Position numbers and translations under genes: made by a program. Below, one piece after another: positions 5,883 through 21,285 of a stretch of 42,680 nucleotides of DNA; positions within the stretch are counted from its first letter, which is position 1; every line of letters begins with the position of its first letter. The stretch is from a virus. The stretch lies in the IMG/VR virus record IMGVR_UViG_3300021479_000037, positions 1-42,680 of that record; one strand, given 5' to 3'. Under the pieces are notes generated by a model. That model had not been told where the DNA came from. It made no database searches and saw only the letters and a list, made by a program, of their open reading frames with translations.

Positions 5883-5892
5883 AAATCTCCTT

Positions 5893-6303
5893 CTATGCGA
5901 ACGTAACCTGATTGGCTCCAAGGACGTGCCAGAAACCATTCTGAGAAACTATAACTAAACTCGACCCTGCAAATGCAGCAAAATGTGCCGTAGCTACAGC
6001 AGCAGTCCCGCTCCTTAGTGTCCCACCAGTGAAGGTAAGGACTGGAGCAGCAGTGTCGAGGGTTACAATTTCTACAAAGAAATCATCATCACCAGGGGCT
6101 GCAATTGTATAAGCTGTACCTATCGAAAGCGAATGACTAGCAGATTTTTGTGCATTGATGGGGCCATTGGCAACGTGGGGTCTTAAGCGATTCAAAGCTC
6201 CAGTGAAGTTGATATCATCTGCGAAAAAAGGCAATGAGCCTCTAGGAGAGGTGCCATTTAGCCACCCTGAGGGAATGTTAGGATTACCTGTTCCTTGTGA
6301 CAT
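5893..6303 (-). CDS. Fibre-tip/decoration protein with AVATAHFAAFAG module
   Basis: A 136-residue protein. Its last ~90 residues (TPVLTFTGG..., AVATAHFAAFAGSSLVIVSQ) are strongly similar to the end of the head protein at 20092-21285 and more distantly to the 145-residue protein at 21311-21748. The shared module is a compact beta domain. The first ~45 residues (NIPSGWLNGTSPRGSLPFF) differ and may attach it to the tail. It lies directly upstream of the large fibre, with a 10-base gap. It may be a small fibre or a trimerising cap. The same module at both head and tail ends of the map suggests copying within the genome. Confidence 0.7.
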   Translation of the reverse strand: MSQGTGNPNIPSGWLNGTSPRGSLPFFADDINFTGALNRLRPHVANGPINAQKSASHSLSIGTAYTIAAPGDDDFFVEIVTLDTAAPVLTFTGGTLRSGTAAVATAHFAAFAGSSLVIVSQNGFWHVLGANQVTFA

Positions 6304-6317
6304 GCCACTCTCCTATT

Positions 6318-7724
6318 TTATAGTGCTGCTGAATTCGTTATAAGCCACTGATTAGCTGATACTGTCATTGTTTGTGCCACACTGATTACGTTCAAACCAC
6401 CAAATCCGATTTGGTCAACAGTGGCTAAGAATGTTCCTATAGTTTCACTGAAAAGATTAACCCAGTTTTCACCAAAGAAATCATAAGAAACATCGAAGAA
6501 TACCGAAGTTCCATCATTTCTAATTCTTCCCCATCCGTAGGCGTAGCACCAATCCACCGCTTGGGTCTTTTCACTATTCGTTTCAACAAAAACTGTACCA
6601 CTATCTGCACTTTGTGATGTATAATGCTCTACTCTAAATGTAGTAGATCCGCTGGTCAAAAGTACTTCAAGACCCATGCGTCGTGTTGAGCTAGCATTCC
6701 CAAAATAAATACCAGCAGTTGCTGCACTCTGCCTACTAACACCAGGGATCGCTCTCAATTGTATAGCCAAACTATACGGCGTAACTGGTGGTGTCTGCAT
6801 AAGTGTTACCACTTGCAATGTTGCAATGCCCGGTATTGATAAGGTAATGGCACCATTTGAGACTTTTTGCTGTGCCGTTGCAGGAGAGCCACCATTGGCA
6901 AAGTTAGACTGTGTGAAACTTCCCAGTGTTGGCAAAGGATTCACACGGGAAGGGGTTCCACCTGCATTAGCTATGACAAAAGCCGTCGTGGCAATCTGTG
7001 TGGTATTCGTCGCCAAAGCTGCTGTGGGTGCTGTAGGAATCCCAGTCAAAGCTGGATTCGCTGCTAATACAACCGCACCCGTACCTGTAGTGCCTGTAAC
7101 GGTCGTTCCCTGAATCTTAGCAACTGTAGTAGCTGTTGCTCCCGGACCTGTACCCGTGACATCTCCGGTAAGACTGGTTACTCCTGATCCTCCACCACCA
7201 GTAGCATTAATTGTCACATTACCCGCTGAAGCATTGGATAAAGTTACATTGGTTCCTGCAATCAGATTCAATGTGGTTTGAGAGATATTTGGAGTAGTGT
7301 TTGTCTCAAATAGAACTGGCGAACCTGCAAGTGCATACCATTTATTGGTTCCACTATTATATTGAAACTGTTGGATAGACACTGCATTTGATACAGTGCT
7401 AGGTGGTGTCGCTCCCACGAAATTTGTGGGCATAACCACAGTCCAACCGCCAGTGACATTCTGTTGCCATGTTATCGTTATAACCTCACCATTAGGTCCA
7501 GGAATAACACTGCTTGATGTGACATTGGCCGTTAGAGGCACATTGAAGCTATTAGCAGTCGTAGCATCAAGTGTAAGGACTCCAGCAACAGGAGTGGCCG
7601 TAACAGGAGCAGGAGCAGCCCCAAAACCGACATAAGCAGAAGCATTCCCAGAGACATCAGATTGCCAAGTGACATTAGTTGCTCCAGCGGGAGCTGCGGG
7701 CAGATCGTGGTTAAGATTTATCAA
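6318..7724 (-). CDS. Tail fibre protein
   Basis: A 468-residue protein. Residues ~1-115 form a beta-rich start ending in TWQQNVTGGWTVVMP. Residues ~150-230 hold the fibre repeat type seen in its neighbours (LNLIAGTNVTLSNASAGNVTI, then LTGDVTGTGPGATATTVAKI). A 'IPTAPTAALATNTTQIATTA' segment, common in phage tail fibres, follows at ~235-255. The C-terminal ~180 residues (IYFGNASSTRRMGLEVLL, WCYAYGWGRIRNDG) look like a jelly-roll carbohydrate-binding domain. A fibre with a terminal binding domain is the likely role. Confidence 0.8.
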   Translation of the reverse strand: MINLNHDLPAAPAGATNVTWQSDVSGNASAYVGFGAAPAPVTATPVAGVLTLDATTANSFNVPLTANVTSSSVIPGPNGEVITITWQQNVTGGWTVVMPTNFVGATPPSTVSNAVSIQQFQYNSGTNKWYALAGSPVLFETNTTPNISQTTLNLIAGTNVTLSNASAGNVTINATGGGGSGVTSLTGDVTGTGPGATATTVAKIQGTTVTGTTGTGAVVLAANPALTGIPTAPTAALATNTTQIATTAFVIANAGGTPSRVNPLPTLGSFTQSNFANGGSPATAQQKVSNGAITLSIPGIATLQVVTLMQTPPVTPYSLAIQLRAIPGVSRQSAATAGIYFGNASSTRRMGLEVLLTSGSTTFRVEHYTSQSADSGTVFVETNSEKTQAVDWCYAYGWGRIRNDGTSVFFDVSYDFFGENWVNLFSETIGTFLATVDQIGFGGLNVISVAQTMTVSANQWLITNSAAL

Positions 7725-7733
7725 TTTAGCTCC

Positions 7734-8018
7734 TTAGAATGTGCCAGTACCGTTGACCAATAGCCCGGTGATTTGGTTAATTGCGATATCGTAATCATCA
7801 CTGACCGTCAAATTGTTAACTTGAATACAGGCACGAAGGATCGGCGTATAGAACCCTGTATTTATATTATACTCTATCACTTCGCCTCCCCGGAAGGAAG
7901 CAGGCCGAACTACAGGGGTTGTTTGTATGCCCACAACCGTAACAAGATTGCTTCCAGGAGTGGAAATAGCGTCACCCATTAATGGCGACAATACTTGAGG
8001 ATAAATCTGTCGGTTCAT
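7734..8018 (-). CDS. Small structural protein of the tail operon
   Basis: A 94-residue protein starting MNRQIYPQVLSPLMGDAIS. It is mostly beta-strand in character and not recognisable by family. Start and stop abut the neighbours within a few bases (the next gene upstream ends at 8019), which indicates coupled translation. An A/T-rich segment near 7860 within it resembles the phage promoter core (TATAATATAAATACAGGG on the minus strand), but as it is inside the gene I do not call it a promoter. A small tail adaptor or chaperone is possible. Confidence 0.65.
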   Translation of the reverse strand: MNRQIYPQVLSPLMGDAISTPGSNLVTVVGIQTTPVVRPASFRGGEVIEYNINTGFYTPILRACIQVNNLTVSDDYDIAINQITGLLVNGTGTF

Positions 8019-8747
8019 TTAGATCGACTCCAAGGGAACATAAAGAAGTGTTACGGTAATTGCTGCACTACCCGCACTAAGGTTCGTCACAGTCAGGTAA
8101 GCTAAAGGAACCTGTGGATTATCTGCGTTCGCTCCAACCTGATCCTGATAGGACCATTGGAAAGGTGCTGTATCCAGTGCAACATCCGTTATGATATTCT
8201 GAGTTGTGCCTGCCGGTGGTGCCACATCCAGTCCTCTGCCCGCATCTCCTGCCTGTGTTGTTGCAGTGCCATAAAGTTCTAACCTAGCAGCCACAGTTGA
8301 AGAAATAAGGAGAGGTTGAAATGATTTTGAAATATTAAGGGCACTCACGAACCTAGCACCGGGTCCCAGTGAAGGAGTTGTCAAGGAAGTGCTTTGAGCC
8401 GTAACGGTAGAAGTTCCACCGCCACTTGTTCCGCCGCCAGTGCCACCAGAGCTGCTCCCACTGCCTGTCCCGCTTCCAATAGTGGTAATTACTACACCTT
8501 TTTGAGTAAGAACGCCTGCATCCTGTATAGGAAGAATGGGCAATAATCTATTCTGAGGAATTGTGCCTTGGTAGAATTGTCTTAAACCATCAGGACTGGC
8601 CCCAAGGATGGGATATGGACTCCGCATATGCGGACTGAACCCTGGTTGTAAGTCTACAGTAGGAGGGGAAGGCCGGGTAAAGGGAGCGGCAGGGACTGCT
8701 TCGTACCCTGCCAAACTCGTGTTTGTTGCGTCTTTTAGGCTCGCCAT
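8019..8747 (-). CDS. Structural protein with Gly/Ser linker
   Basis: A 242-residue protein starting MASLKDATNTSLAGYEAVP; the ATG at 8747 follows AGAGGTGC. A Pro-rich N-terminal arm (residues ~1-85) leads to a flexible linker made only of Gly, Ser and Thr (about residues 95-120), then a C-terminal beta domain (~125-242) ending in a hydrophobic strand. The arm-linker-domain plan fits a tail-attached spike or adaptor joining the tail tube (next gene upstream) to the fibres. No family name is assigned. Confidence 0.7.
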   Translation of the reverse strand: MASLKDATNTSLAGYEAVPAAPFTRPSPPTVDLQPGFSPHMRSPYPILGASPDGLRQFYQGTIPQNRLLPILPIQDAGVLTQKGVVITTIGSGTGSGSSSGGTGGGTSGGGTSTVTAQSTSLTTPSLGPGARFVSALNISKSFQPLLISSTVAARLELYGTATTQAGDAGRGLDVAPPAGTTQNIITDVALDTAPFQWSYQDQVGANADNPQVPLAYLTVTNLSAGSAAITVTLLYVPLESI

Positions 8748-8773
8748 CTGCACCTCTTAAGTCATTGATTCTA

Positions 8774-11700
8774 TTAACTTTCCTGCATAAAGGAGCCGTA
8801 AATCGAAAATGTCAGAATTTCGTCCTGAACTCTACTTATTCCGAAGTTAATGGAACACTGTAAATGACGGCATACCGCCGCTTGGTCTGGAAGTTCAGAG
8901 AAATAGAACCGCTGCCCACGTATCGACCGGCTTTCCGGCTGATTCGGTGGATCAGTGACCCAGTTCGTCAATGGTTCAAAAGGACCATTAAAGAATGGCA
9001 AGGCTTCATCAATAATCACGGAAATGCTTAATGGCGTTCCCGTTCTTACTGAATCAGTCGTTACAAACCCTACGACAGCTACCTGACCCGGTTGGGCAAG
9101 GTTTATGCTTCCAAGTACTGCATTGGCGAAGTAACTACTGGTGTTGTCCTGGAAGAAGTTACTGTCTCTTTTCAGGAGCACGCCTACGCCGCTTTGCACA
9201 GGAAGTGAGGTTGTGTCAGTGCCTGCGAAGGTCACGGAACCATTTCTTGCCAAGAGCCGTCCATTGACTGTCGTTCCGGTATTGACTGAAATACTTGTCA
9301 GTGCCAAAACTGTAGCATTGAGTATGTTCGTAGTGCCAATCGTGGCAGAGCTGCCCACCACAAAGACCACATCTGCTGCTGCCGCACCGCCCACTAAGGC
9401 AATTGTGGAGCCTGCACCTGTGATAAATGTACTTGAACATTGGAACACGTACCTGCCATTGCCATTGAGTGTCAACGTCAAGCCGCCCGTAATATGGAAG
9501 GTTCCCGATGACTCAGAATATGTTCCTGGAGTCAAGGTAACACTTCCTAACTCTGACACAATTGGTGTGGGAGTTAGGGCAGACAATTGACCGAAAAGTG
9601 TAGTAGCATACGCTTGATCCGCTACCGCTATAGGGTCATCTATATGTGTAGCACCATTCACCACTGGTCCACCTGTTACGGAGGAGCCTGGAGATAGGAC
9701 TAAATCGCCATTGATAGTTGTCAATGGTACACTTGTGATCGTTGTTCCGGCCATTACAGCAACATTGGTAAGAACTCCGAAAGTAATGAAGTTTGAGCCT
9801 GCACCGCTCGAAAGTGTGCCAGGACCAAGGAGCAACTTATGCACTCCAGGGAGGACTTCAAGACTCTGAACAGCCTTAACGCCGCCGACGATGGTGGCAA
9901 AAGGTGACCAAGTCAGTCCAGTTTCAGGTGCTGGAGTCGGCATTAGCCGAAACCAACCAAACTTACCGTCTGAGACGTACCAAGCCTGATCTTCACCATC
10001 AACATGCCACGTAACGTATACGTTTGCAGCATTCCAACTCGTGCCAGGATTTCCGTCATTTTTGCGGAATTGGTCACCAATTGGTAAGCCGACGTAAGAA
10101 ACACCAGCTCCGGGATCGAGGATCACGAACTGATTGTCTGTCGTATAGAACCCAATCAAAGCGCCGTTGACATCCAAAGCATTGTAGCTTAGTAGTCCAA
10201 TACCCTTCAGCAAGATTACTGCCTTAGGGATGGTCACGCCATTCGATGTATTCACCAGAAAGATGTCCGACACAGAGAATACAATGACTCCCTGGTTCGT
10301 TGGTACTATCCTCTTAAGCAAACTAGGAAATGTATCAAAGTTTAGAGGTGCAACACCATTCACACCATTGCCTGCTGGCGTATCCGGACCACTTGTCCAA
10401 TAACCTACGTTTCCAACGCTGAAGAAGATCCGACCCAAGTGATAGGTCAGATTGATTGCACCACCTGCTGGTGGAGTGTTCTCTCCAGCGATAGGTGCTG
10501 AAATCAAGTTATTCAAACCAGTATCAGGGGTCGTATCTGTGAATCCCTTCGTCAAATAATCGTGTAATGTTTCAGTATAAATCGAATTGCCCGTCCCAGG
10601 TATTAGGAAGGGTAATGAGCCGCCATCCACAGTACGGAATATGGCAACATAATCGGCTTGTGGGTCAATATTCGCAGGAATAAGTCCACTTCCTGGAGGA
10701 ATTACCACACCTGTTGATCCTACAAAGTTCCCAGTAGAAACTGATAAGGGACTAGCATTAGAGACGGTGTTATCCAATGTATTGACTAGAGCAATAGCAT
10801 ATTGAAACCCGCCAGCTAGTGCACTAATCGTGCCCGGTGGTGGTGCAGCCCCTGGACCTTGATTGATCCAAATTAGATTAGGATTATCAAGTGTAAGGCT
10901 ATTAAGTGTAGTTGAAAATGTAGGTCTAGTCGTTCCTGTGAATCCTGCCTCAAAAGGTGCTTCCGTATTTCCATTAGGATCTAAGATCGTTGAATTTGGC
11001 AGTGTGAAGCCCGTATTTGCACGCCATTGCATATCTGTAATGGGTCCAAAGTTATTCCAAACAAAGTTTCCTGCCGATTCAGTCACATTAGCTCTTGCAG
11101 GAGCAAGAGAAGTAGTATATGCAGGGAATGCTGGCGAAGTTGCACCACTCTCAGCCGGACCTGTGATTAATGTATTTCCATTCGCCGTCACCACAAAGGT
11201 TCTGCCCTGGTGGAACCAATAAGCCCAATCGAACTCGACTGCATAGGAACCCGCTGTCGGAAAGTTCACCACAAAGACATCTGTGGAGAGCCCGCCATCA
11301 TTCAATGGGAGGTTCGTTCCGCCCATAATCGGATAGGAGTTCAAGGCTGTATGTGTAAGATGGTTAGGATCATTATGAGGACCAGACACCAGTGTCGCAC
11401 CACCATTAACACCCCAGACCATGCCGTCATGATGCTTAACAGTAATCGTGTACTGTCCAGCTACTGGAACATTCCAATTAGTCGTGAAGGCTATCTGGAA
11501 ATCTTTGGTAATGCCACTTGAGTTCGGACCTGGAAATGGTGATGTAGTTCCAGTGACCGCACCAGATGCATCAAAAGTATTCCATAATATCGCACTTGCT
11601 GGACTATCTGCTTGAATCGGGTCATCCACGCTAAGTGAAGTTCCCGAAGCCGTTGCCCTAATAGCGAATGGAGATGAACTGCTCGTCTGTTGAAATTGAC

Positions 11701-13057
11701 CGCCTGCGGGACCTCCACCACTTGGCCATTGAGTTGCCGCAACTGGGGCATTCAATGTGATCTGTGAGAAAGGCGCTAACTGGAAGATATCTCCACCAGC
11801 TTCAATGATCTGACCTGCCGGGTAAACTGTGTGTGCTGCCCAAGTTAATGAATCTACTTGAGCGACTGTCCAAGTTACCCCGCCATCGGTTGTGGTGTTG
11901 CCTAATATCGTTGCCCAAGTTGGTTGCGCTGGCCCAGATTTGCCAGCAGTAGTAACCTTTTGAACATTACCGTTGATATCTATGATAATTCCCAAAGGAG
12001 AAAAGAACGTGTTGGGAACCCAAGCGCCTGCTGCACCCGTTGAAACTATAGGTGTATTCGGTGGTGCAACTATTCCCCAATTCTCCACAGAAGGGAGTCC
12101 AGGATGTGTTGCATCAGGTGTTCCACGATTAGTCCATAGTACCGTTCCATCAATCGTCAAGCCGCCTTGGAAGTTATTGCCTGCATTCGGCGTAACTGTG
12201 CTCCAAGTAGGTTGCGTAGCACCAGAAGTTGGCGTACCACCTGTAGCGGTTGCATTTATTGTCTCTGGATTAGAAAATGTACCAGGAATATTGAAGGTAA
12301 ATGTAAAGGTATTTGTGGTAACTGTAAGAATTGTAACGGTTTGGCCCGATAATTGGGAAGTAACTATGGTGCTAGGAAATGTGACAGTAAGTCCTGGGGT
12401 CAACAACCCGGTAAGGGTGGTACTAGAAGTTGCCGTGATTGTGCCACCAACTCCTGAGATATTCGTAATAGGAAATATCGCTGCTGTCAACTGCTGGATG
12501 TTAGTATTAGGGTCAATAAGGAAGGTAGTCAAAAACGGAGTAATAGGTGTGTTCCACTTGGCAAACGCCATCCAAAGTGTAAGAGACTGTAACCACTTCT
12601 TATTATCAAGACCATTGCCAAAATACAAAGTGTTGCCTACAGACTGCATATACGTCTGACCTGCACCTGGAGTCTTGGTCCAAACGAGCGTCTTCACACC
12701 GGCAAATAGCGAGTATAGTGCATTACTCTGATCAACCATCACATCGATCTGCTCAGTAGAGGTATTGAATAGTCGAAATTCTTCAAAACGGTCTACATTG
12801 GCATAGGTATTACTATCAAATACTGAATTTCCTGGCCTACGAGCAAGAGTCAATCGATTCGTAATCTCAACATTAGAGCCTGCAATAAGCGCATCACCTG
12901 AAGCACCATAATATTTCTCTGCCTGACGAGAAGTCGCCGCATCGCGCAATGGACTGCGGTTGGTCCATAAGCCCGATGACCAGCGACCCGTATAGATAGG
13001 TGCGAATCTAGTGGGTTTTTGAGCCTGAGCCCCTGAAATTGACAATTGATTTGGCAA
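8774..13057 (-). CDS. Tail tubular protein B-like giant tail protein with inserted DUF3494 (ice-binding fold) domain
   Basis: A 1427-residue protein. The N-terminus (GRWSSGLWTNRSPLRD, then VDRFEEFRLF and beta-propeller-like strands) and the C-terminus (FANAVLGSINLAQPGQVAVV, SISVIIDEA) resemble large tail tubular/nozzle proteins of T7-like phages. Three modules are inserted. Residues ~280-420 hold repeats of the 'G..QPTW.....TTDGG..WT' type. Residues ~460-650 hold a PA14-like beta domain (NWNVPVAGQYTITVKHHDG). Residues ~1083-1286 hold a DUF3494 domain, the fold of type 1 ice-binding proteins (NGDLVLSPGSSVTGGP, TLTPGTYSESSG, VVGSSATIGT, TTVNGRLLARNG). It likely forms the tail nozzle, with surface modules for adhesion. 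It follows the A-like proteins, as in T7. Confidence 0.8.
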   Translation of the reverse strand: MPNQLSISGAQAQKPTRFAPIYTGRWSSGLWTNRSPLRDAATSRQAEKYYGASGDALIAGSNVEITNRLTLARRPGNSVFDSNTYANVDRFEEFRLFNTSTEQIDVMVDQSNALYSLFAGVKTLVWTKTPGAGQTYMQSVGNTLYFGNGLDNKKWLQSLTLWMAFAKWNTPITPFLTTFLIDPNTNIQQLTAAIFPITNISGVGGTITATSSTTLTGLLTPGLTVTFPSTIVTSQLSGQTVTILTVTTNTFTFTFNIPGTFSNPETINATATGGTPTSGATQPTWSTVTPNAGNNFQGGLTIDGTVLWTNRGTPDATHPGLPSVENWGIVAPPNTPIVSTGAAGAWVPNTFFSPLGIIIDINGNVQKVTTAGKSGPAQPTWATILGNTTTDGGVTWTVAQVDSLTWAAHTVYPAGQIIEAGGDIFQLAPFSQITLNAPVAATQWPSGGGPAGGQFQQTSSSSPFAIRATASGTSLSVDDPIQADSPASAILWNTFDASGAVTGTTSPFPGPNSSGITKDFQIAFTTNWNVPVAGQYTITVKHHDGMVWGVNGGATLVSGPHNDPNHLTHTALNSYPIMGGTNLPLNDGGLSTDVFVVNFPTAGSYAVEFDWAYWFHQGRTFVVTANGNTLITGPAESGATSPAFPAYTTSLAPARANVTESAGNFVWNNFGPITDMQWRANTGFTLPNSTILDPNGNTEAPFEAGFTGTTRPTFSTTLNSLTLDNPNLIWINQGPGAAPPPGTISALAGGFQYAIALVNTLDNTVSNASPLSVSTGNFVGSTGVVIPPGSGLIPANIDPQADYVAIFRTVDGGSLPFLIPGTGNSIYTETLHDYLTKGFTDTTPDTGLNNLISAPIAGENTPPAGGAINLTYHLGRIFFSVGNVGYWTSGPDTPAGNGVNGVAPLNFDTFPSLLKRIVPTNQGVIVFSVSDIFLVNTSNGVTIPKAVILLKGIGLLSYNALDVNGALIGFYTTDNQFVILDPGAGVSYVGLPIGDQFRKNDGNPGTSWNAANVYVTWHVDGEDQAWYVSDGKFGWFRLMPTPAPETGLTWSPFATIVGGVKAVQSLEVLPGVHKLLLGPGTLSSGAGSNFITFGVLTNVAVMAGTTITSVPLTTINGDLVLSPGSSVTGGPVVNGATHIDDPIAVADQAYATTLFGQLSALTPTPIVSELGSVTLTPGTYSESSGTFHITGGLTLTLNGNGRYVFQCSSTFITGAGSTIALVGGAAAADVVFVVGSSATIGTTNILNATVLALTSISVNTGTTVNGRLLARNGSVTFAGTDTTSLPVQSGVGVLLKRDSNFFQDNTSSYFANAVLGSINLAQPGQVAVVGFVTTDSVRTGTPLSISVIIDEALPFFNGPFEPLTNWVTDPPNQPESRSIRGQRFYFSELPDQAAVCRHLQCSINFGISRVQDEILTFSIYGSFMQES

Positions 13058-13070
13058 GGTAGCTCCTAAA

Positions 13071-14234
13071 CTAAACTGTGACTACTTGGTAGAGCCATTC
13101 TAAATCCGTAAACGTATTATCAGCCGGAAGTGTTGAAATCGCTGTTTGATCGCCCGAAGTGGTTAGCCCTATCATCCCAAACCCTGCATTTGCCCCTGCT
13201 GAAGCTTGGGCAAATAGCAAATTTGAATTTCCAGCAACATTTGCTATATAGAAAGCTGCCGTGTAGTCATGAAGTGTATCTAATGCTAAATTTATAGGAT
13301 CAGATTCAATGAATGTGGGGGTTTCTCCAGAGTTTAGTGCCAATGTCTGGGCTCCCAATCCTCCAATAGTTATTGGGGTTGATGAGATTACCGCCAGAGA
13401 ATTTGCTAAAGTGGTCAAAAGCACCATATTCCCTAATACTAGAGGAAAACTATTATGGTTATCTGCAATGGCCATTCTCATTTTCCAATTATTAGCTACC
13501 GGATTATTGATAAGGTTCCGTCCATAAATTTTATTGAATATAGTAATATTTTGGAATCCAGAAGTTGCAATATTCCCAAGATTAATAATTCTCCATCCTA
13601 GAGTGACATTTCTTCCTGCTGGAATGGTTGAAGAAGTAGGTGATGCAATCGTAACATTTCCACCTGAGGTATTAGTTAGGGTGACATTCGCACCAGCAAC
13701 CAAATTTAGAGTCAACTGCGAGGAGTTTGCAACGCCATTCGTCTCTACGATGAGAGGTGCCACAGTCCCAGATGAAATCGTAATATTTTGTCCTGCCGAT
13801 GCCACTGTTACGTTAGTTCCTGCGATAATGTTAATAGCGCCAGTTTCCGTGTTTAAACTAGTAACACCTGATCCACCACCTGAATTCACAATACTAAGAC
13901 TGTTAGGAATCCATGTTCCTAGATCGAAAGTTGCACCGGACACCACTACTTGGTACTGTGGTCCCCATGCTAATTGACCTTTAGCCGTGAATGCATTTAC
14001 TGTGTAGTAACTGTTCACCGGAGTAAGGTCATCATTACCCCAAACCAATACCGTACCTGATACGTTCCCACTACCATCCAAGGGAACCCGTATCTTAATG
14101 CCAAAACCTACCTGACCGACTCCTGTAGCCACTTCATCTTGTGAAAGTTCCATGGTAAGAAATCCAAGGGCCAGCGGGTTTCCTTCCAGATCTTGGAAGC
14201 CACCACCGATGAGTTGGGTCTTAGTTAATGCCAT
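13071..14234 (-). CDS. Tail fibre/appendage protein
   Basis: A 387-residue protein starting MALTKTQLIGGGFQDLEGNP, an opening often seen in phage tail appendage proteins that begin with a small anchoring beta domain (residues ~1-110). The middle carries two copies of the fibre repeat (SGVTSLNTETGAINIIAGTN and LNLVAGANVTLTNTSGGNVT), as in the 468-residue fibre. The C-terminal ~170 residues are a beta-rich domain. It lies between the tail tubular A-like and B-like genes, so it may connect tube and fibres. Confidence 0.75.
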   Translation of the reverse strand: MALTKTQLIGGGFQDLEGNPLALGFLTMELSQDEVATGVGQVGFGIKIRVPLDGSGNVSGTVLVWGNDDLTPVNSYYTVNAFTAKGQLAWGPQYQVVVSGATFDLGTWIPNSLSIVNSGGGSGVTSLNTETGAINIIAGTNVTVASAGQNITISSGTVAPLIVETNGVANSSQLTLNLVAGANVTLTNTSGGNVTIASPTSSTIPAGRNVTLGWRIINLGNIATSGFQNITIFNKIYGRNLINNPVANNWKMRMAIADNHNSFPLVLGNMVLLTTLANSLAVISSTPITIGGLGAQTLALNSGETPTFIESDPINLALDTLHDYTAAFYIANVAGNSNLLFAQASAGANAGFGMIGLTTSGDQTAISTLPADNTFTDLEWLYQVVTV

Positions 14235-14243
14235 GGGATCTCC

Positions 14244-14960
14244 TTATTGGCCGCGAGCGGCTGTGCCTTGCTGTATGTTCTGTGACATCATCATCGGTTG
14301 TCCTGAAATAGCAGACCATTGCGAAAGGAAAACGTTACGCTCAACTTCCGTCAAGCCCTGGTTAGCGGCTAAAAGTGCACTAACGAACTTACCATTGGCC
14401 TGCGCTGCGCGTGGGTCATCAGCGAAGAACCACATAAGAGTAAGAAATCCCCACTGGAAAATATGACTATACATATCGGGCAAGGGTGTAAGTGTCTGCG
14501 CAGTGCTCGTAAACAATGGTGCAGCACTTTGTATGGTAACACTAACCGAGTAAATCTTCTCAGGAATAGGCATGAACCGGAATGTTATATTACCCGTACC
14601 GTTATCAAACTCAGCAGAGATGTTACGGGGACGCCCTGCGGTAGAGTCTAGAGCTAACCCCACCTTCTCTTCCATCTCAATCCATTTAGCTATGGTAGGA
14701 TCAAATACACTAGCATCCTCAATCCATCCAAAATTAGCCACTGCCTGAGCATAGTCTTGTGTGGCTATAATTGTCGAAAAAGTCTTAACTTGCCTATTCC
14801 AACGCCACCTAAAAGGTGGTCCAAGGAGAGTCTGCATCACCATATTGGCCGCTGTCATCGCTGGTTCTTGAAAGTTACCAAGGTTGGATACTCTGCCAAA
14901 ATTCAACTTGCTAGAGAATTCTAAGATTTGAGCGAGTGTCACAGTTGAAACATTAGCCAT
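14244..14960 (-). CDS. Tail tubular protein A-like (gatekeeper/adaptor)
   Basis: A 238-residue protein. It is recognisable by the helical start (AMTAANMVMQTLLGPPFRWRWNR), a central beta sandwich (ISAEFDNGTGNITFRFMPIP) and a helical end with 'PDMYSHIFQWGFLTLMWFFA'. This plan matches adaptor/tail tubular A proteins that sit under the portal in T7-like phages. It is a diverged copy of the next protein upstream (14971-16083), which shares the '(F)xWxxNR' segment, the 'TLxPxPDxY' segment and the overall order. It is coupled to its neighbours by gaps of about ten bases. Confidence 0.7.
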   Translation of the reverse strand: MANVSTVTLAQILEFSSKLNFGRVSNLGNFQEPAMTAANMVMQTLLGPPFRWRWNRQVKTFSTIIATQDYAQAVANFGWIEDASVFDPTIAKWIEMEEKVGLALDSTAGRPRNISAEFDNGTGNITFRFMPIPEKIYSVSVTIQSAAPLFTSTAQTLTPLPDMYSHIFQWGFLTLMWFFADDPRAAQANGKFVSALLAANQGLTEVERNVFLSQWSAISGQPMMMSQNIQQGTAARGQ

Positions 14961-14970
14961 TTAGTATCCT

Positions 14971-16083
14971 TTAGTTACCCCAACCCCAAGGTCTGTCGGG
15001 ACGCGATATCAATCCAGAGATCCAGTTGGAGTCCATTACTGAGGTTCCTGGATAGAACCCATAGTCTTCCTTCTCGCGGTCAGACTGCTTAACGCAATCG
15101 GATAGATCTTTCATCCACAGAGCATTTTCGGCAGTGAATCTTGCACGAACCTTAGAGTCTGCGGAACGACGCACACATTGCGTATAGAAGCCTTGTTTGA
15201 AGTACTCAACATAGTCATCTGGAATCGGCTCTAGCGTCTGCTGTAATGATGTAAATACCGGAATACGTTGCTGCCCTATTGGCTGAAATACCCAAGCCGT
15301 TCCCGTCTGCGGAGGCAAAGGATTCACACGGAAGCCTTGGCTGCTCGGATCAATTGCGGTCCAAACTGTCGTTCCATCGGTGACTGTGCTCGCCACTGTA
15401 TTCGGACTGGCATAGGTCGGGAAGCTCGGAGGATTCGTCCAAACTGGTTGTGTAGCGCCGCAAGTGCCGAATGTCGTTACAACCCAAAGATTGCCATTAG
15501 GATCTTTAATTCCTGTCGTAGCATTAGCAGGTTGCGTCAGAAGTCCGATTGGGTTCGTATAAATAACATTGGGTCCAGGATTCTGTAATCCTGAAAGATT
15601 CTTACCAATTCCACCTTGGTCACCACCAAGATTGCCTGTGGTCGGTCCAAGTGGGGTTGCTCCCCAAGTTCCAGCAAGTAGCATAGAATTCGGAAGCCAG
15701 CATAATTTGCCAGGATACCCGGTCTGTAAGAAGGTAACATCCAGGTCACGGACACACTCTACTTCATACTTTGCCTTAAGATTGGTCTGTTGGTTAATAT
15801 TCACTGCCCAACAGTTCTCAAGCCAACCAAGATTTAATAGGCCGGGAATGAAGTAATCTTGCTGAAAGCTTATCGTCACGAAACTGGGTGTATTGAAGCG
15901 GTTGAACTTCCAGTTGAAAGGTGCACCATCGGCAGAGCCTGCCAACATTTTTGTAACAACTGTGTTCGCAATATCCAAGGCCGGTTGATCGGAGAACCCA
16001 CCGGAAGCCAGAACTGGAGCAAGATCACCGAAAGTTGAGGCTGAATCCGCAATTTGAGAAATCGTAATCGTGCTATTAGCCAA
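14971..16083 (-). CDS. Tail tubular protein A-like paralogue, larger form
   Basis: Predicted to start at a TTG at 16083, which has AAGGAG five bases before it; the upstream reading (16107) has no such signal. It gives 370 residues. It shares with the 238-residue neighbour the 'GAPFNWKFNR' region, 'LEPIPDDYVEYFKQGFYTQC' and a helical end. An insertion at about residues 170-260 (NGNLWVVTTFGTCGATQPVW ... TDGTTVWTAIDP) is the same repeat type as in the giant tail protein. A duplicated adaptor is unusual; one copy may form the adaptor ring and the other a second ring or collar. Confidence 0.7.
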   Translation of the reverse strand: MANSTITISQIADSASTFGDLAPVLASGGFSDQPALDIANTVVTKMLAGSADGAPFNWKFNRFNTPSFVTISFQQDYFIPGLLNLGWLENCWAVNINQQTNLKAKYEVECVRDLDVTFLQTGYPGKLCWLPNSMLLAGTWGATPLGPTTGNLGGDQGGIGKNLSGLQNPGPNVIYTNPIGLLTQPANATTGIKDPNGNLWVVTTFGTCGATQPVWTNPPSFPTYASPNTVASTVTDGTTVWTAIDPSSQGFRVNPLPPQTGTAWVFQPIGQQRIPVFTSLQQTLEPIPDDYVEYFKQGFYTQCVRRSADSKVRARFTAENALWMKDLSDCVKQSDREKEDYGFYPGTSVMDSNWISGLISRPDRPWGWGN

Positions 16084-16113
16084 AGTGGCTCCTTGATCTA
16101 AACGCAAATAGTG

Positions 16114-16135
16114 AGGGGACCCCGAAAGGTCCCCT
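16114..16135 (-). terminator. Strong hairpin between tail adaptor and upstream gene
   Basis: The arms AGGGGACC and GGTCCCCT pair perfectly over 8 bases around a 6-base loop. No T-run follows on the minus strand (CACTATTTG), so it may be a weak terminator or an RNA processing/stability hairpin rather than a full intrinsic terminator. Confidence 0.55.
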
Positions 16136-16141
16136 TAGTGT

Positions 16142-16780
16142 TTAACGGAGCGTCGAACTGCGGGTCACTGTGCGAAAATGTTCTCCATCATCGCTGAAGC
16201 GCCACTGAGTTCCACCACTCGTGATTGAATTGGTCGAAAGTTGAAGTGCGGCTTTATAAACGTCCCCGGCCAACTTGTAGCCAGCTTCATCAAACGTTCC
16301 ATTGACAGTGAAGTCCACACGCACTGGCGGCTTCCAGGTCTTTGCGCAACGCAAACAACGTTGCCAAGTATCTCCATTAGGAAGCATGTGCCTCATAAGA
16401 CAATGATCGTCTTTCTGGCCTTTGCCCTGCATGAAGCCCTGAATACCATTTCCACCTTTACGGTGGGTGCAATTCATCTGGTGCGCAGTCTCACCCTGAA
16501 GGGTAGCACGCAATGTCTGGCCGTTCTGCTTCGACTTCTGAGTCTTGTCTTGAATCTTCATAGACCGTTCGTCACGGAGCTGCTGCATGTTCTCTGCATT
16601 GAACTTGCGTTCTGCGATAGCTAGGGTACGATCTTCGAGTTCCGCTGCCTTTGCGGCCAACTCGGCTCTCTTGATTTCGAGTTCTAGCTGCTTGATTTCG
16701 AGATCAGCCGCTTCCACAGCGGAGAGCTTGACTTCCTTAACTTCGGGTTCCACTACTGATTTCTTTTTGGTATCTTCCAT
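16142..16780 (-). CDS. Coiled-coil protein with Cys/His cluster
   Basis: A 212-residue protein starting MEDTKKKSVVEPEVKEVK; the ATG at 16780 follows AAGAGGAGAATT. Residues ~18-85 are a long charged helix (EAADLEIKQLELEIKRAEL), very likely a coiled coil. Residues ~100-150 hold spaced Cys and His (NCTHRKGG, DDHCLMRHM, RCLRCAKTW), a possible metal-binding knuckle. The end (GGTQWRFSDDGEHFRTV) looks like a small beta unit. It lies between the head-decoration genes and the tail genes; a virion or assembly role is inferred. The family is not recognised. Confidence 0.65.
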   Translation of the reverse strand: MEDTKKKSVVEPEVKEVKLSAVEAADLEIKQLELEIKRAELAAKAAELEDRTLAIAERKFNAENMQQLRDERSMKIQDKTQKSKQNGQTLRATLQGETAHQMNCTHRKGGNGIQGFMQGKGQKDDHCLMRHMLPNGDTWQRCLRCAKTWKPPVRVDFTVNGTFDEAGYKLAGDVYKAALQLSTNSITSGGTQWRFSDDGEHFRTVTRSSTLR

Positions 16781-16790
16781 AATTCTCCTC

Positions 16791-17417
16791 TTAAACTGCT
16801 TTGTAGAAGTTGCGATAATCATATAGAGTGCGCAGATAGCGACTACTCGCGGGTCCGACTGGCAAACCGAATTCTTCCCTTACGGCTTGTTCCGTCAGAA
16901 CACCTTTTAGGATCAACTGCAACAATACTGTGCGCCAACCCCTGTAGCGTGAATTCACTACTAGGCCGCGACTGTCAAATCTCAAAATCTCGAATTCCGT
17001 CGTCCATCCGGCCTGGACCCATCCAGCTATTTCCAGAGGACCGATCAGTTTGCGCTGCACGACCAACACGAGTTTGTCCGCGTGCGGGTGCTGTCTGTAC
17101 CAGCACTGTATGCCTATCTGGCGAAGCCGGTTGATGAGTTCTGCGCTGTGCATCGGACGTCCAACGCGTGGCTTCACATCCGCATATTCTTTGGGGTCGA
17201 TGAACTGATACTGCTTCGACATCGCCTGACTCATTTCGAGCTGTTCTGCCAAGGCTTCTTCATTCTGCTGCGAAGACTTGGTATGGTGCTTCTGGCTGTA
17301 GATTTCCACTTCTTTAGCCAGTCTCGGGTTCATTTTCAGGTCCATCTCACGAGCATAAGATTGCCATGGAGACTCTTCACTGGTATGCGTTCCCTTAATC
17401 TTAGGTTGTACTTGCAT
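16791..17417 (-). CDS. Unrecognised late protein
   Basis: A 208-residue protein starting MQVQPKIKGTHTSEE. The ATG at 17417 has GAGGAGAGAA directly before it; the earlier ATG (17450) does not. The N-terminal half is polar and helical (EALAEQLEMSQAMSKQYQF). The C-terminal half is more structured (KLVLVVQRKLIGPLEIAGW, YRGWRTVLLQLILKGVLTE). It opens a leftward unit behind a ~220-base leader and a promoter-like site (17649-17664), and is coupled to the coiled-coil gene downstream, whose ribosome site overlaps its stop. No function can be assigned. Confidence 0.65.
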   Translation of the reverse strand: MQVQPKIKGTHTSEESPWQSYAREMDLKMNPRLAKEVEIYSQKHHTKSSQQNEEALAEQLEMSQAMSKQYQFIDPKEYADVKPRVGRPMHSAELINRLRQIGIQCWYRQHPHADKLVLVVQRKLIGPLEIAGWVQAGWTTEFEILRFDSRGLVVNSRYRGWRTVLLQLILKGVLTEQAVREEFGLPVGPASSRYLRTLYDYRNFYKAV

Positions 17418-17648
17418 TTCTCTCCTCATTTTTGCTTTGTGGCCCCTCAAAGACCCCTTACAGGCAGTTTAAAGTGCCTTCAAGGAGCCAAAAGCCTAGA
17501 AACTAACCTAAACAGGGTAATTATTCCTGTATTTAGTCGGTCGTTAGGTGCCGAATGGCCTATTCCGCACACAACTATGGACAAACAACAAGCTGGAGTG
17601 GGTAATCCGACCTCTCCAAGCCCTCATTTGCCCTTATCTAGATCATCT

Positions 17649-17664
17649 CTATACTACTATTATA
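17649..17664 (-). promoter_or_regulatory. Phage-type promoter candidate (copy b)
   Basis: The minus strand reads TATAATAGTAGTATAGAG. It is identical over 16 bases to the site at 28514-28529. TGC precedes the TATAAT, so an extended -10 host promoter is an alternative reading. It lies between genes, at the head of a 220-base untranslated leader. Confidence 0.6.
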
Positions 17665-17670
17665 GCACAG

Positions 17671-17811
17671 TTAATTGTCTTTAGTCTCTTCACAATACTG
17701 TTTGAATAGCTCTGAAAGCGCCCTTTCAAGTTTACGGACATGTCTACGCATGAATCGTACTTCGCGCTTCAACTGCCCATTTTCCACTGCCAAATCCTCT
17801 TGGTGATCCAT
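17671..17811 (-). CDS. Small coiled-coil protein
   Basis: A 46-residue protein, MDHQEDLAVENGQLKREVRF..., with heptad-like Leu/Val/Phe spacing and many Lys/Arg/Glu, giving a short coiled coil. The start at 17811 is set by AGAGGAGTAAC, in which the TAA is the stop of the gene before. The longer reading in the same frame (to 18162) lies across the Cys-rich gene and is not real. It could be a small assembly factor or a leucine-zipper-type regulator; nothing more can be said. Confidence 0.65.
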   Translation of the reverse strand: MDHQEDLAVENGQLKREVRFMRRHVRKLERALSELFKQYCEETKDN

Positions 17812-17812
17812 G

Positions 17813-18526
17813 TTACTCCTCTGTGTGCTCGGTAGCCTCTTCTTCGGGCGACTCATAACTTTCTTCGGCTTCTTCCTTCGAGAGTTTGTTTCCCTCGAAA
17901 TAGCCCTCAACTTCAACTCCATTAAAAGTACAGCAGGCATTCCAGTAAACACGTGCATCCATCTGCTTACAGTAGGTATCCCGACGTTGCGAGTCAAGCT
18001 CATTGGCCTTCTCAGCGAACGGACAGACCTGACAACCGAACTTAGCCTTCTTGGAGACTCCATATGCAACACTCTCAGCCGTAGCAGCTTTAGGATTCTC
18101 TGCGATATCCAGTTCAGTATCGCTAGCACGAGGAATGTCCCACTTAGCGCATCCGCCTGCATTGGCGTCTATTCCAGATTCTGGCTTAATGATCGTACAT
18201 TTGTCTTTGCCGTAAAACTTATTGCACCCACCACAGACATATTTACCTGTAGGATCAAATGTGGCCGGGTTTCCAGTAGTAATATCGGCATAATTGAACA
18301 ATTCCGCAAATGTCAAACGGTGGCGTTGCTCATCTACTTCCCGCTTTGCGCGTTTATCATTGCCCTTTTCAGGTTCTGGCTGCTCAAATAAGCCATCTGA
18401 CCCTCTTTTGGGCCTATCTATAATTCTTTCCGTCATTTCGGATTTGGGCTCAACCTTAGGGGTTGCCTTGGGAGCCTTCTTCGTACCTGTAGCCAAGCTG
18501 GCCATTGCATCGCGTACATCCGCCAT
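17813..18526 (-). CDS. Cys-rich acidic-tailed protein
   Basis: A 237-residue protein with GAAAGGAGCC before the ATG. Residues ~1-75 are a Lys/Pro/Glu-rich disordered arm. The core has about ten Cys in a row of pairs (YVCGGCNKFYGKDKC, GGCAKWD, FGCQVCPFAEK, NACCTF), reminiscent of small iron-sulfur or zinc proteins; the CxxC...C...GGC order is notable. The end (EEEATEHTEE) is strongly acidic. It sits between the Ig/ice-binding-fold decoration genes and the tail genes. Metal binding is inferred from Cys spacing; the family is not recognised. Confidence 0.65.
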   Translation of the reverse strand: MADVRDAMASLATGTKKAPKATPKVEPKSEMTERIIDRPKRGSDGLFEQPEPEKGNDKRAKREVDEQRHRLTFAELFNYADITTGNPATFDPTGKYVCGGCNKFYGKDKCTIIKPESGIDANAGGCAKWDIPRASDTELDIAENPKAATAESVAYGVSKKAKFGCQVCPFAEKANELDSQRRDTYCKQMDARVYWNACCTFNGVEVEGYFEGNKLSKEEAEESYESPEEEATEHTEE

Positions 18527-18549
18527 CGGGGGCTCCTTTCAAGGGTGCA

Positions 18550-18572
18550 ACGGCAGGGGGTTAACCTGCCGT
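18550..18572 (-). terminator. Hairpin after Ig-domain gene
   Basis: The arms ACGGCAGG and CCTGCCGT pair over 8 bases with a 7-base loop, between the Ig-like gene and the Cys-rich gene. No T-run follows, so it may attenuate or protect RNA rather than terminate. Confidence 0.5.
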
Positions 18573-18586
18573 GCGTTTAGATACAG

Positions 18587-19018
18587 TTACGGACCAACGA
18601 CAACCAACACCGTGGCATAGATAAAGCCAGGAAGCAAGCTATTGCTGTTGACATTCTCATCAGTGGTAGCAAAACGCGCTTCGATCACGGCTTGGCCGGG
18701 ATTCAGAGCGGTGATGACGCCAGAGGTAATGCCAACACTGGCAATGTTAGGATTCTGCGAAACAGCAGAGTTTGCGCCAGGGTTGTTGTAGCTAATATAA
18801 TTGACAACATTAGAGTTACCAGAAGTGAACGTGGCATCGGCAGCATCTTCCAGAACAGCGGTCAGAGTGCAAGTAGCCGGAAAGCCAGTAGCCGACACGG
18901 AAAGCTGCACAGTGTACTCATTGCCAGTAATATTCGTAACGCCAGTGCCAGACAGTTCAATTACCACTGCCGTACCAAGAGCATCCGTAGGATTATGCGA
19001 AGGGGTCGGATTGGCCAT
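18587..19018 (-). CDS. Ig-like (BIG2-type) head decoration protein
   Basis: A 143-residue protein with TTAAAGGAGCC before the ATG. It starts MANPTPSHNPTDALGTA, almost the same as the next gene upstream (MANPTPQPNPTTGIGTA), and carries a bacterial Ig-like fold of BIG2 type (NPNIASVGITSGVITALNPG). It is a single Ig unit without a second domain. Such Ig modules decorate phage heads and tails and bind cell surfaces or mucus weakly. With its two-domain paralogue it probably attaches to the capsid through the shared N-terminus. Confidence 0.8.
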   Translation of the reverse strand: MANPTPSHNPTDALGTAVVIELSGTGVTNITGNEYTVQLSVSATGFPATCTLTAVLEDAADATFTSGNSNVVNYISYNNPGANSAVSQNPNIASVGITSGVITALNPGQAVIEARFATTDENVNSNSLLPGFIYATVLVVVGP

Positions 19019-19040
19019 TAAGGCTCCTTTAAATCAAATG

Positions 19041-20063
19041 TTACGGGAGGGTCAGCACGATCAAATTGCCAGTCAACGTAACCGCAGTCTGAGCCAAGCA
19101 ACGACCGTGAACCGTAACGGTATCACCAACATTGATAGCGGCTCCTGCAAGTATGCTACCGTTGAATACGTTCGTAGCTCCAAGAGTCATCGACGTGCCC
19201 ATTACCCAATAGACGTTCTTCGCCAGTGCTCCACCAGTCAGAATAACCTGACAAGTAGCGCCCGTGGTCATCGCCGTGGTCGCCTGGAAGACCCAAACGT
19301 CAGTAGCGGAACCGTTTAGCGTAAGATTCGTCGAAGTCGTGATGCTAAAAGTTGAAGTAGATCGATAGATTCCAGGACCAAGAGTCAATCCACCAAGATT
19401 CTTATCGCCAGCATAAGTGGTTCCAGGAGTCCGAGTGCTGAGATCTGCGTAAGCTGCCAAGAAAGCAGTGATAGCAGTTTCAGTCGGCGAATCATCGAGA
19501 CTGTGAAGAACGAACGGAGAATCCACAACCGTCGGAGGAAAGTTATTGATTGCAGTGCGACTACCAACGTCAGACGCAACGTGAGCAGCATTGCCAGAAG
19601 TGGCGGCGCTACCAGTCGAAGCAGCGATTCCTAGCATACCGAAGTTACCAAGGCCAGTTAGTACTGGACCCGGAACGGGAGTATTCACGGTAACGGTAGA
19701 AAGAACCGTAGCATATATTTTGTCCACAAGAACGCTATTCGTTCCATCAAATGTTGCATACTGGACTTCGATTTCAGCCTGTCCAGTGGACACGGCGGTG
19801 ATGATCCCACTCGTAGCGCCGACCGTGGCGATAGAAGGTGAACGTGAAACATATTGGGCAATATTTGAATTACCAGAAGTGAAGGCCGATCCTGCAACAT
19901 CCTGTATAAGTGGGGTAACAGTGGTCGTGGTCATCCCGACAACACCAAGTGTTACGGTGTATTCATTGCCCGTAATCTGCGTAATGCCAGTGCCGCTCAT
20001 ACGAACTCGTGCAGCGGTCCCAATACCAGTCGTAGGATTGGGCTGAGGAGTGGGGTTTGCCAT
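19041..20063 (-). CDS. Head decoration protein: Ig-like domain plus DUF3494 ice-binding-fold domain
   Basis: A 340-residue protein with TTTAAGGAGCC before the ATG. Residues ~1-125 are a BIG2-like Ig domain (SPSIATVGATSGIITAVSTG) paralogous to the next gene. Residues ~135-340 are a DUF3494 domain: LGNFGMLGIAASTGSAATSG at its start, LGGLTLGPGIYRSTSTFSIT, NVYWVMGTSMTLGATNVFNG and VTVHGRCLAQTAVTL follow the family's beta-helix pattern. Ice binding cannot be claimed, because the fold also serves as an adhesin. Its position three genes after the capsid gene suggests a capsid-surface fibre. Confidence 0.82.
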   Translation of the reverse strand: MANPTPQPNPTTGIGTAARVRMSGTGITQITGNEYTVTLGVVGMTTTTVTPLIQDVAGSAFTSGNSNIAQYVSRSPSIATVGATSGIITAVSTGQAEIEVQYATFDGTNSVLVDKIYATVLSTVTVNTPVPGPVLTGLGNFGMLGIAASTGSAATSGNAAHVASDVGSRTAINNFPPTVVDSPFVLHSLDDSPTETAITAFLAAYADLSTRTPGTTYAGDKNLGGLTLGPGIYRSTSTFSITTSTNLTLNGSATDVWVFQATTAMTTGATCQVILTGGALAKNVYWVMGTSMTLGATNVFNGSILAGAAINVGDTVTVHGRCLAQTAVTLTGNLIVLTLP

Positions 20064-20091: not shown

Positions 20092-21285
20092 TTATGCAAA
20101 GGTCACTGCATTTTGGCTAATGACATTCCATTTTCCCGTATGCGAAACCAAGATAATACTGGACCCTGCGAATGCTGCAAAATGAGCCGTAGCGACTGCC
20201 GCTGAGCCACTATTTAGAGTATTTCCGGTGAAGGTAAGAACTGGGGTCGCTGTGTCGAATGTAGTAATCTCAATCCTAGTGTCATCAACTGAAGGGGCAG
20301 CAATCGTAAGCGCCGTAGCCACAGTGACAACATAATTAGCAGATCCAGTAACAGGAACTGCTCCATTGGCTACAATTGCGGTTAAAGGATTCAATGAACC
20401 ACTGAAAGTAATTCCACCTAATATATCCAAAGTATTAGTAGGAATTTGAACATTGATTCCGATGCTACCAGTATCTGGACCATTTAGACCTGAACCATAA
20501 ACAGTATTGCCAATGCTCATCTGGTTACTAGCAGTACTATCTGGAACAAATGAACCAACACCTATTGTGATATTCCTAGATCCTGTGTCAACATCATTAG
20601 TCTGACCAATAGAAACGTTATTACTACCAGTAGTAATTGCGATGCCTGCATTGGCACCCATAGTAGTATTATTTGCTCCGGTAGTAATCTGTTGTCCTGC
20701 ACCAAGACCTATAGCAGCATTATTGCCCCCGGTAGTCAGTGCCTTAAGAGCACTATAACCACATGCTGTGTTCTTAACACCAGTAGTTGCAACTTTCAAT
20801 GCTTGTGAGCCAACTGCCACATTCTGAAATGTTGTACAAAGATTTAAAGCATCAAAACCTACCGCAGTGTTCTCTGTGGGAGTCGTGAATATTCCAAATT
20901 CAGTTGTAATGGATTGTAATGCTCCTGAACCTACCGCAGTATTCTTGGTAGCAGTAGTGAGACTATGTAGAGCATCAAATCCTAATCCAGTATTATCACT
21001 ACCAGTAAGAGAAAAGTTTCCGCTACCAGTACCAACAAATAGATTATCAGTACCAAAAGTACTTAGAATTGCAGCACCAGACTGTGCAACCGTTCCAACA
21101 GTTGGTGCACTACTAGCAGGAAGATTGACTGCTGTGGCAGGTCCAGCTACAGGAGCAGCAGGAACCCAACCACCAGTAGTCGGATTTCCAATATAAAGCA
21201 GATCATTAGCGATATCGACAGCCAAAGCTGGCGTACCGGGCACGGGAATCGTGGGTACGCCACGTGTTATATAATCATACGCCAT
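20092..21285 (-). CDS. Head fibre with YadA-like head repeats
   Basis: A 397-residue protein with three parts. Residues 1-45 (MAYDYITRGVPTIPVPGTPA) match the start of the next gene and probably anchor it to the capsid. Residues ~85-250 are about ten repeats of 14-18 residues of the type 'NTAVGSGALQSITT', 'NNAAIGLGAGQQITTGA', which is the left-handed beta-roll seen in trimeric autotransporter heads. Residues ~305-397 are the AVATAHFAAFAG module shared with the protein at 5893-6303. This suggests a trimeric head fibre with a capping domain. Confidence 0.82.
   Translation of the reverse strand: MAYDYITRGVPTIPVPGTPALAVDIANDLLYIGNPTTGGWVPAAPVAGPATAVNLPASSAPTVGTVAQSGAAILSTFGTDNLFVGTGSGNFSLTGSDNTGLGFDALHSLTTATKNTAVGSGALQSITTEFGIFTTPTENTAVGFDALNLCTTFQNVAVGSQALKVATTGVKNTACGYSALKALTTGGNNAAIGLGAGQQITTGANNTTMGANAGIAITTGSNNVSIGQTNDVDTGSRNITIGVGSFVPDSTASNQMSIGNTVYGSGLNGPDTGSIGINVQIPTNTLDILGGITFSGSLNPLTAIVANGAVPVTGSANYVVTVATALTIAAPSVDDTRIEITTFDTATPVLTFTGNTLNSGSAAVATAHFAAFAGSSIILVSHTGKWNVISQNAVTFA

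Follow-up and report, generated by a model that had tools for sequence, protein, structure and literature searches.

DUF3494 domains of the ice-binding fold in a tail nozzle and a probable head decoration protein of a soil phage

Why would a phage build an ice-binding fold into the proteins of its own particle? The question is raised by the 42,680-base virus record IMGVR_UViG_3300021479_000037, analysed here in full (the window), which belongs to a soil phage whose structural genes resemble those of Tunturi_3 (PP885686), a podovirus infecting the psychrotolerant acidobacterium Tunturiibacter from Finnish tundra soil (PMC11924767). The window holds exactly two copies of the DUF3494 domain (PF11999), one in the product of 8774-13057 (copy D2) and one in that of 19041-20063 (copy D1), against none in 14 control genomes. 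The same fold is found in dozens of environmental phages, on tails and apparently on heads, which suggests that some phages cling to ice or to another solid surface.

The two domains and the proteins that carry them

The features concerned are the following (comparison loci are given as L numbers).

8774-13057, minus strand: tail nozzle as modelled, a hub of P22 gp10/SU10 type, 1427 residues, with an inserted DUF3494 domain (homology to Tunturi_3 gp19; AlphaFold 2 model)
9188-9799, minus strand: domain D2 of the DUF3494 type, inserted at site A of the nozzle (residues 1087-1290) with HKLLLGP on one side and LLKRDSNFF on the other (PF11999; fold; break in homology)
9341-9352, minus strand: predicted ice-binding-face residues S1236, S1237 and T1239 of D2 (alignment to GSSAT of 7bwx; mutants in PMC7277481)
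19041-20063, minus strand: probable head decoration protein (gp19041), 340 residues, N-terminal BIG2-like domain and C-terminal DUF3494 (place after the major head protein gene; paralogue)
19692-20063, minus strand: BIG2-like domain at the N-terminus (residues 1-124), probably the anchor to the virion (paralogue at 18587-19018; DUF3494-free orthologues)
19044-19661, minus strand: DUF3494 domain D1, residues 135-340 (PF11999; AlphaFold 2 model)
19185-19196, minus strand: predicted ice-binding-face residues T290, S291 and T293 of D1 (alignment; face according to PMC7277481 and PMC12337378)
18587-19018, minus strand: paralogue of the decoration protein, in tandem with it and DUF3494-free (single-copy orthologue in L007 and L256)

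An earlier note, made from the sequence of this record, had recognized DUF3494 in both proteins and proposed a profile search, which bears it out: PF11999 matches D2 at residues 1101-1280 (E = 3e-32, 112 bits) and D1 at residues 140-335 (E = 3e-39, 135 bits), far above the cut-off of 28.7 bits, and the top PDB matches of both open reading frames (ORFs) by phmmer are ice-binding or antifreeze proteins only. A chance or low-complexity match is ruled out by these E-values, the 14 control genomes without DUF3494 and two structure models. The fold is also the ice-binding one that the note had named and not another. In the AlphaFold model of nozzle residues 760-1427 (mean predicted local distance difference test, pLDDT, of 84), D2 occupies model residues 328-531, is flanked by low-confidence linkers (model residues 322-330 and 528-534), and superposes on EfcIBP (6eio) with a Z of 31.4 and 1.5 Å over 201 residues at 39% identity. 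D1 reaches a Z of 22.6 to both 9li0 and 7bwy, with 150 residues aligned at 1.6 Å in the case of 9li0; its residues 190-340 have a pLDDT of 95-98, while pLDDT is below 50 in the N-terminal domain of gp19041 and in the stretch of about 50 residues with which D1 begins, before residue 190. Each model shows one 18-residue helix and solenoid strands, i.e. a discontinuous β-solenoid with a bracing α-helix. The likeness to type-1 ice-binding proteins (EfcIBP 6eio, AnpIBP 7bwx, FfIBP and ColAFP) therefore includes PF11999, the β-solenoid (Z 22-31) and small residues on the b-face, among them the equivalents of S153 and T156 discussed below. Characterized DUF3494 proteins, however, are secreted or cell-anchored microbial proteins, whereas the window copies lie inside, or fused to, phage structural proteins: by inspection, the N-termini of the two ORFs (MPNQLSISGAQAQK and MANPTPQPNPTTG) show no hydrophobic signal, and neither ORF has the signal peptide of the secreted type.

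As modelled, the product of 8774-13057 is a tail nozzle of the P22 gp10/SU10 type, which agrees with the earlier note. Its body shares the fold of P22 gp10 (Z 15.4), the GP4 tail protein (14.5) and the SU10 nozzle (13.0), and an SU10-type portal and adaptor are encoded in the same genome. The nozzle profile gave no match to PDB sequences at E up to 1; kinship to the solved nozzles rests on fold because such tail proteins diverge past sequence detection. The solved P22 gp10 and SU10 nozzles are not known to have a 200-residue DUF3494 loop insertion of the kind seen in the window. The Tunturi_3 homologue gp19 (L004 18182-21592) was deposited as a 'head decoration protein'; since the window homologue folds as a nozzle, this label is probably a mis-annotation.

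The placement of the product of 19041-20063 on the head, also claimed in the earlier note, is likely to be right. Gene order, with the gene lying after that of the major head protein (22822-23679), and the BIG2-like N-terminus make gp19041 probably a head decoration protein, although the only family matches are weak, namely phrog_215 (E = 0.011) and Phage_spike_2 (E = 0.0058), both obtained for the paralogue 18587-19018. The N-terminal half of gp19041 is 50% identical to this neighbour. In L007 and L256, a single BIG2-like gene without DUF3494 occupies the same place between the capsid gene and the downstream genes; the window phage has therefore duplicated this gene, and one of the copies bears DUF3494.

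Insertion history and spread among viruses

D2 is a clean modular loop insertion. The homology of the nozzle to L005 and L006 breaks off at residue 1078 and restarts at 1292, and at site A Tunturi_3 has only a short empty loop (HKLLLGP-LTTGP-LLNRDL). Tunturi_3 is the closest cultured relative of the window phage (79% identity in the major head protein, 65% in the portal and, with gp19, 55% over 83% of the nozzle); it shares the structural gene block but, unlike the window, carries no DUF3494, PF11999 having no match across its whole genome. Among 17 close nozzle relatives the window is in fact the sole carrier, the other 16, Tunturi_3 included, being without the domain.

A wider scan for nozzle relatives yielded 77 loci, and a tree was built on 70 nozzle bodies. 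DUF3494 was found at site A (Tunturi_3 residue 998) in the window, L196, L197, L213 and L220, at site B (residue 1015) in L201, L214, L215 and L248, at site C (residue 81) in L254 and L255, and at a fourth position, near 375, in a nozzle-related ORF of L228. The carriers are scattered on the tree and require six changes, at least five of which are forced by starred branches; the domain has thus been gained and lost repeatedly. A single insertion in the nozzle family is ruled out by the three sites, the L228 site and the rejection of one clade (p-AU, from the approximately unbiased test, of 0.0016). The nozzle DUF3494s form two well supported groups, each with site A and site B domains, and their sequences point to at least two sources. 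A recent duplication within the window genome probably does not account for D1 and D2, which are 38-40% identical and whose grouping in one clade is weakly rejected (p-AU 0.044); the branch of D1 is long, and its position differs between trees. The presence of DUF3494 in two acidobacterial genomes is of little weight. In L228 the nozzle region extends over two adjacent ORFs (5491-7545 and 7548-10901) with DUF3494 in the upstream one; a paralogue, a naturally split gene or a frameshift might account for this.

The earlier note had treated the domain as something odd in a single phage. Instead, it is a recurrent module, found by two alignment-based scans and the nozzle scan in about 67 distinct IMG/VR contigs, as counted from contig names. 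A literature search on six of the IMG sample numbers returned nothing on habitat. Most copies lie within non-secreted virion-like ORFs (sheath, baseplate, nozzle and post-capsid gene); many carrier ORFs have no family match, so that the term 'virion' is presumptive for these. A tail sheath (L130 4793-7633; phrog_279, E = 7e-24) carries one full DUF3494 and a partial second one near its N-terminus; it is the only sheath confirmed by PHROGs, which did not confirm that L153, L150 and L167 are sheath-like. In L125 the domain is part of a baseplate J protein (PF04865, E = 2e-6), and in L016 (6450-8426) of the gene immediately after that of the major head protein (phrog_752, E = 5e-42). That DUF3494 is inserted in virion proteins is almost certain. 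No DUF3494 was found in the cultured phages of INPHARED by six tblastn queries, the gp8774 query matching Tunturi_3 only, and through the nozzle; no DUF3494 family of PHROGs was matched by the proteins studied here. In BFVD, the named viral DUF3494 proteins come from the giant virus Hyperionvirus.

Some of these carriers have further peculiarities. The L011-L018 proteins, encoded after or near the major head protein, combine an α-helical-looking N-terminus, repeats of the chitobiase-C/Fn3-associated type and a C-terminal DUF3494. L020 7674-9633 holds a tandem array of three genes whose products start alike (MPFTGTPIV..., MAFIGTPV... and MAFTGVIT...), the first alone with DUF3494, a duplicate-then-graft pattern like that of the window decoration genes. 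IMGVR_UViG_3300042090_002301 (L021/L118) has three copies, one in a baseplate-J-like ORF of 2387 residues and two in an ORF of 1389 residues.

The occurrence of PF11999 in viral genomes is not in itself new. PF11999 genes of Central Arctic marine viral operational taxonomic units were reported as host cryoprotection genes (PMC11515562), and one antifreeze protein, its family not given, was reported in Southern Ocean viruses (PMC8407431). Like the window, the Central Arctic genomes and that of Hyperionvirus carry PF11999, but as host-cryoprotecting auxiliary genes or giant-virus genes for which no virion placement is described. The possibility that the window copies are also auxiliary products protecting the host from cold is in line with the Arctic proposal (PMC11515562) and with the secreted or lipoprotein-like versions of L009/L010, L145, L134 and L003, in which DUF3494 follows an N-terminal hydrophobic or lipoprotein-like segment. 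It is nevertheless extremely improbable, since both window domains are part of structural-type proteins without signal peptides, encoded in the virion gene block. Conversely, viral PF11999 matches now taken for such auxiliary genes become candidate structural proteins. A search of the open-access literature, with subscription papers and preprints outside its reach, returned no paper on DUF3494 and phages, and PMC11515562 as the sole one on PF11999 and phages. The domain itself is known, but its placement in virions, the nozzle included, appears to be undescribed and its recurrent use as a virion module appears to be new.

The exposed face and its candidate ligands

The ice-binding site of AnpIBP is the b-face, in which the substitutions S153Y and T156Y leave 17% of activity (PMC7277481). 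In an alignment to 7bwx the equivalents of these residues are S1236 and T1239 in D2 (identical) and T290 and T293 in D1. Residues of the face used by working ice-binding proteins are present in both copies. As far as can be judged from sequence, the b-face of D1 and D2, with small Ala, Ser or Thr in most columns, is that of a functional type-1 ice-binding protein. It is also markedly conserved among phages (faces being assigned by strand order and from the literature). Ser or Thr at the S153-equivalent position together with Thr at the T156-equivalent one is found in 51 of 57 phage copies versus 17 of 64 sampled bacterial ones. In 54/58 and 25/64, respectively, only small residues (A, S, T, N or G) occupy the six positions that point outward on the b-face in the last three rungs. 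Compared with bacteria, variability in phages is lower on the b-face, the only face for which this is so, and higher in the core, a-face and c-face (mean entropy difference of -0.39 versus +0.45, permutation p = 5e-5), with the qualification that the rows are related and that weighting at 60% identity reduces their effective number to about 21 for phages and 11 for bacteria.

This pattern makes it very unlikely that the solenoid is neutral cargo or a bulk stabilizer, which just fills space or stiffens the particle. Such a role would be in keeping with the patchy presence of the domain and its repeated gain and loss, but a bulk spacer is predicted to show the opposite of what is seen, namely an exposed face more conserved than in bacteria and a core and a-face less so. 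Surface adhesion, in one form or another, is highly probable as the role of the domain, and a near-invariant exposed face on unrelated virion proteins argues for one unchanging ligand rather than for a diversifying host receptor. For the same reason it is unlikely that DUF3494 is a receptor- or glycan-binding adhesin for the bacterial surface, unrelated to ice. Many copies do sit on cell-facing parts of the tail (nozzle, baseplate J and fibre-like ORFs), substrate binding has been reported for the fold (PMC12337378) and the post-capsid copies of L011-L018 adjoin chitobiase-C-type repeats. However, receptor-binding surfaces would be expected to diversify, while the b-face hardly varies across phages with different virion proteins; in addition, tail-sheath and capsid-adjacent copies lie away from the point of adsorption, and close relatives with the same nozzle carry no DUF3494.

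The reading that we prefer, with confidence slightly better than even, is that DUF3494 serves the virion for adhesion as a modular and multivalent domain, its flat face binding ice or some other surface that is similarly invariant. That the ligand is ice itself is about as likely as not. Ice fits because ice binding depends on the residues present and because the nearest cultured relative comes from tundra. Several points weigh on the other side. The bacterial copies used for comparison were selected for their similarity to these phage domains, the b-face positions were listed only once the alignment had been viewed, two b-face positions of D2 in the first of the rungs compared are taken by His1188 and Ile1212, and Tunturi_3 manages without DUF3494 in spite of its origin in Arctic tundra soil. 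DUF3494 also occurs in ice-free habitats and has been termed ice- or substrate-binding (PMC12337378), which makes another regular hydrated surface a serious rival. The Thr/Ser face might thus bind environmental solids such as soil polysaccharide, mineral or plant litter and give the virion a hold in soil pores or biofilm, with ice binding incidental or absent. Phage copies are Ser/Thr-rich in column 2, as is typical of DUF3494 from rock, subsurface and sediment, while an Ala-rich column is typical of sea ice and glacier ice (PMC12337378). Yet the two positions needed for ice binding by AnpIBP are among the best kept, and EfcIBP, the nearest to D2, binds ice, if weakly, with a Ser/Thr/Ala column (PMC12337378), and we consider that such solids are rather improbable as the actual target.

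How adhesion to ice, or to a surface like it, might work can be outlined from the placement of the two domains. DUF3494 would be an exchangeable accessory domain on the exterior of the particle. D2 would hang by flexible linkers from a nozzle loop and, since nozzles of the P22 gp10/SU10 type are hexamers, there would be six copies per tail; D1, fused C-terminally to a duplicated decoration-like protein, would be present in many copies on the head. Through the exposed b-face the particle would most likely stick multivalently to ice crystals in freezing soil water, or to a regular hydrated solid surface, many weak sites on nozzle and head adding up to firm attachment. The virion might benefit by staying at the boundary between ice and brine, where cells are excluded, or by stopping the recrystallization of ice against it. 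In its boldest form, which we put forward tentatively and with less than even confidence, the proposal is an ice-adhering virion, many tailed phages having independently coated their particles with ice-binding domains, with which they would ride on growing ice in freezing soils or survive next to it.

The closest parallel is with phage Ig-like domains and T4 Hoc (PMC10385173), also exchangeable surface domains on virion proteins that are absent from close relatives, and the proposed tethering can be likened to that of virions to mucus or to one another by such domains. The fold differs, an Ig sandwich (in Hoc linked to virion clustering and dispersion) as opposed to the DUF3494 solenoid with its conserved face of the ice-binding type; by fold DUF3494 is not an Ig-like accessory domain, but by analogy it may work like one. 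If the proposal is true, a class of virion accessory domain with a physical, well-understood candidate ligand would stand beside the Ig-like domains and ice would become a physical partner in phage ecology. It would become testable whether phages in tundra soils, in peat and in permafrost partition to ice, a matter of consequence for the survival of viruses and for infection during freeze-thaw.

Neighbouring genes of the structural block

The remaining structural genes referred to above are these.

22822-23679, minus strand: major head protein (phrog_1357, E = 2.5e-11; 79% identical to Tunturi_3)
25428-27362, minus strand: portal of SU10 type (PF23899, E = 3e-16; 65% identical to Tunturi_3)
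14244-14960, minus strand: SU10-type adaptor between portal and nozzle (PF24175, E = 2.8e-5; 25.1 bits, just under the Pfam cut-off of 27)

An HNH/endonuclease VII-like gene (21963-22706, minus strand; phrog_374, E = 1e-31) follows the capsid gene and precedes the decoration genes; the equivalent place in L256 is taken by unrelated-looking ORFs, possibly a different homing endonuclease. Adjoining the decoration genes, 20092-21285 (minus strand) encodes a 397-residue protein with degenerate N-x-A-x-G-x-x-A-L repeats, which by eye resemble a trimeric adhesin head; it matches the tail spike family phrog_4636 (E = 3.5e-19) and the head family phrog_23837, and might be a head fibre. Finally, a module of 40-60 residues (G..G..QPTW....DG..W) is repeated in the nozzle (8774-13057) and in gp14971 (14971-16107) and cross-matches Tunturi_3 genes; it is possibly a small repeated binding module.

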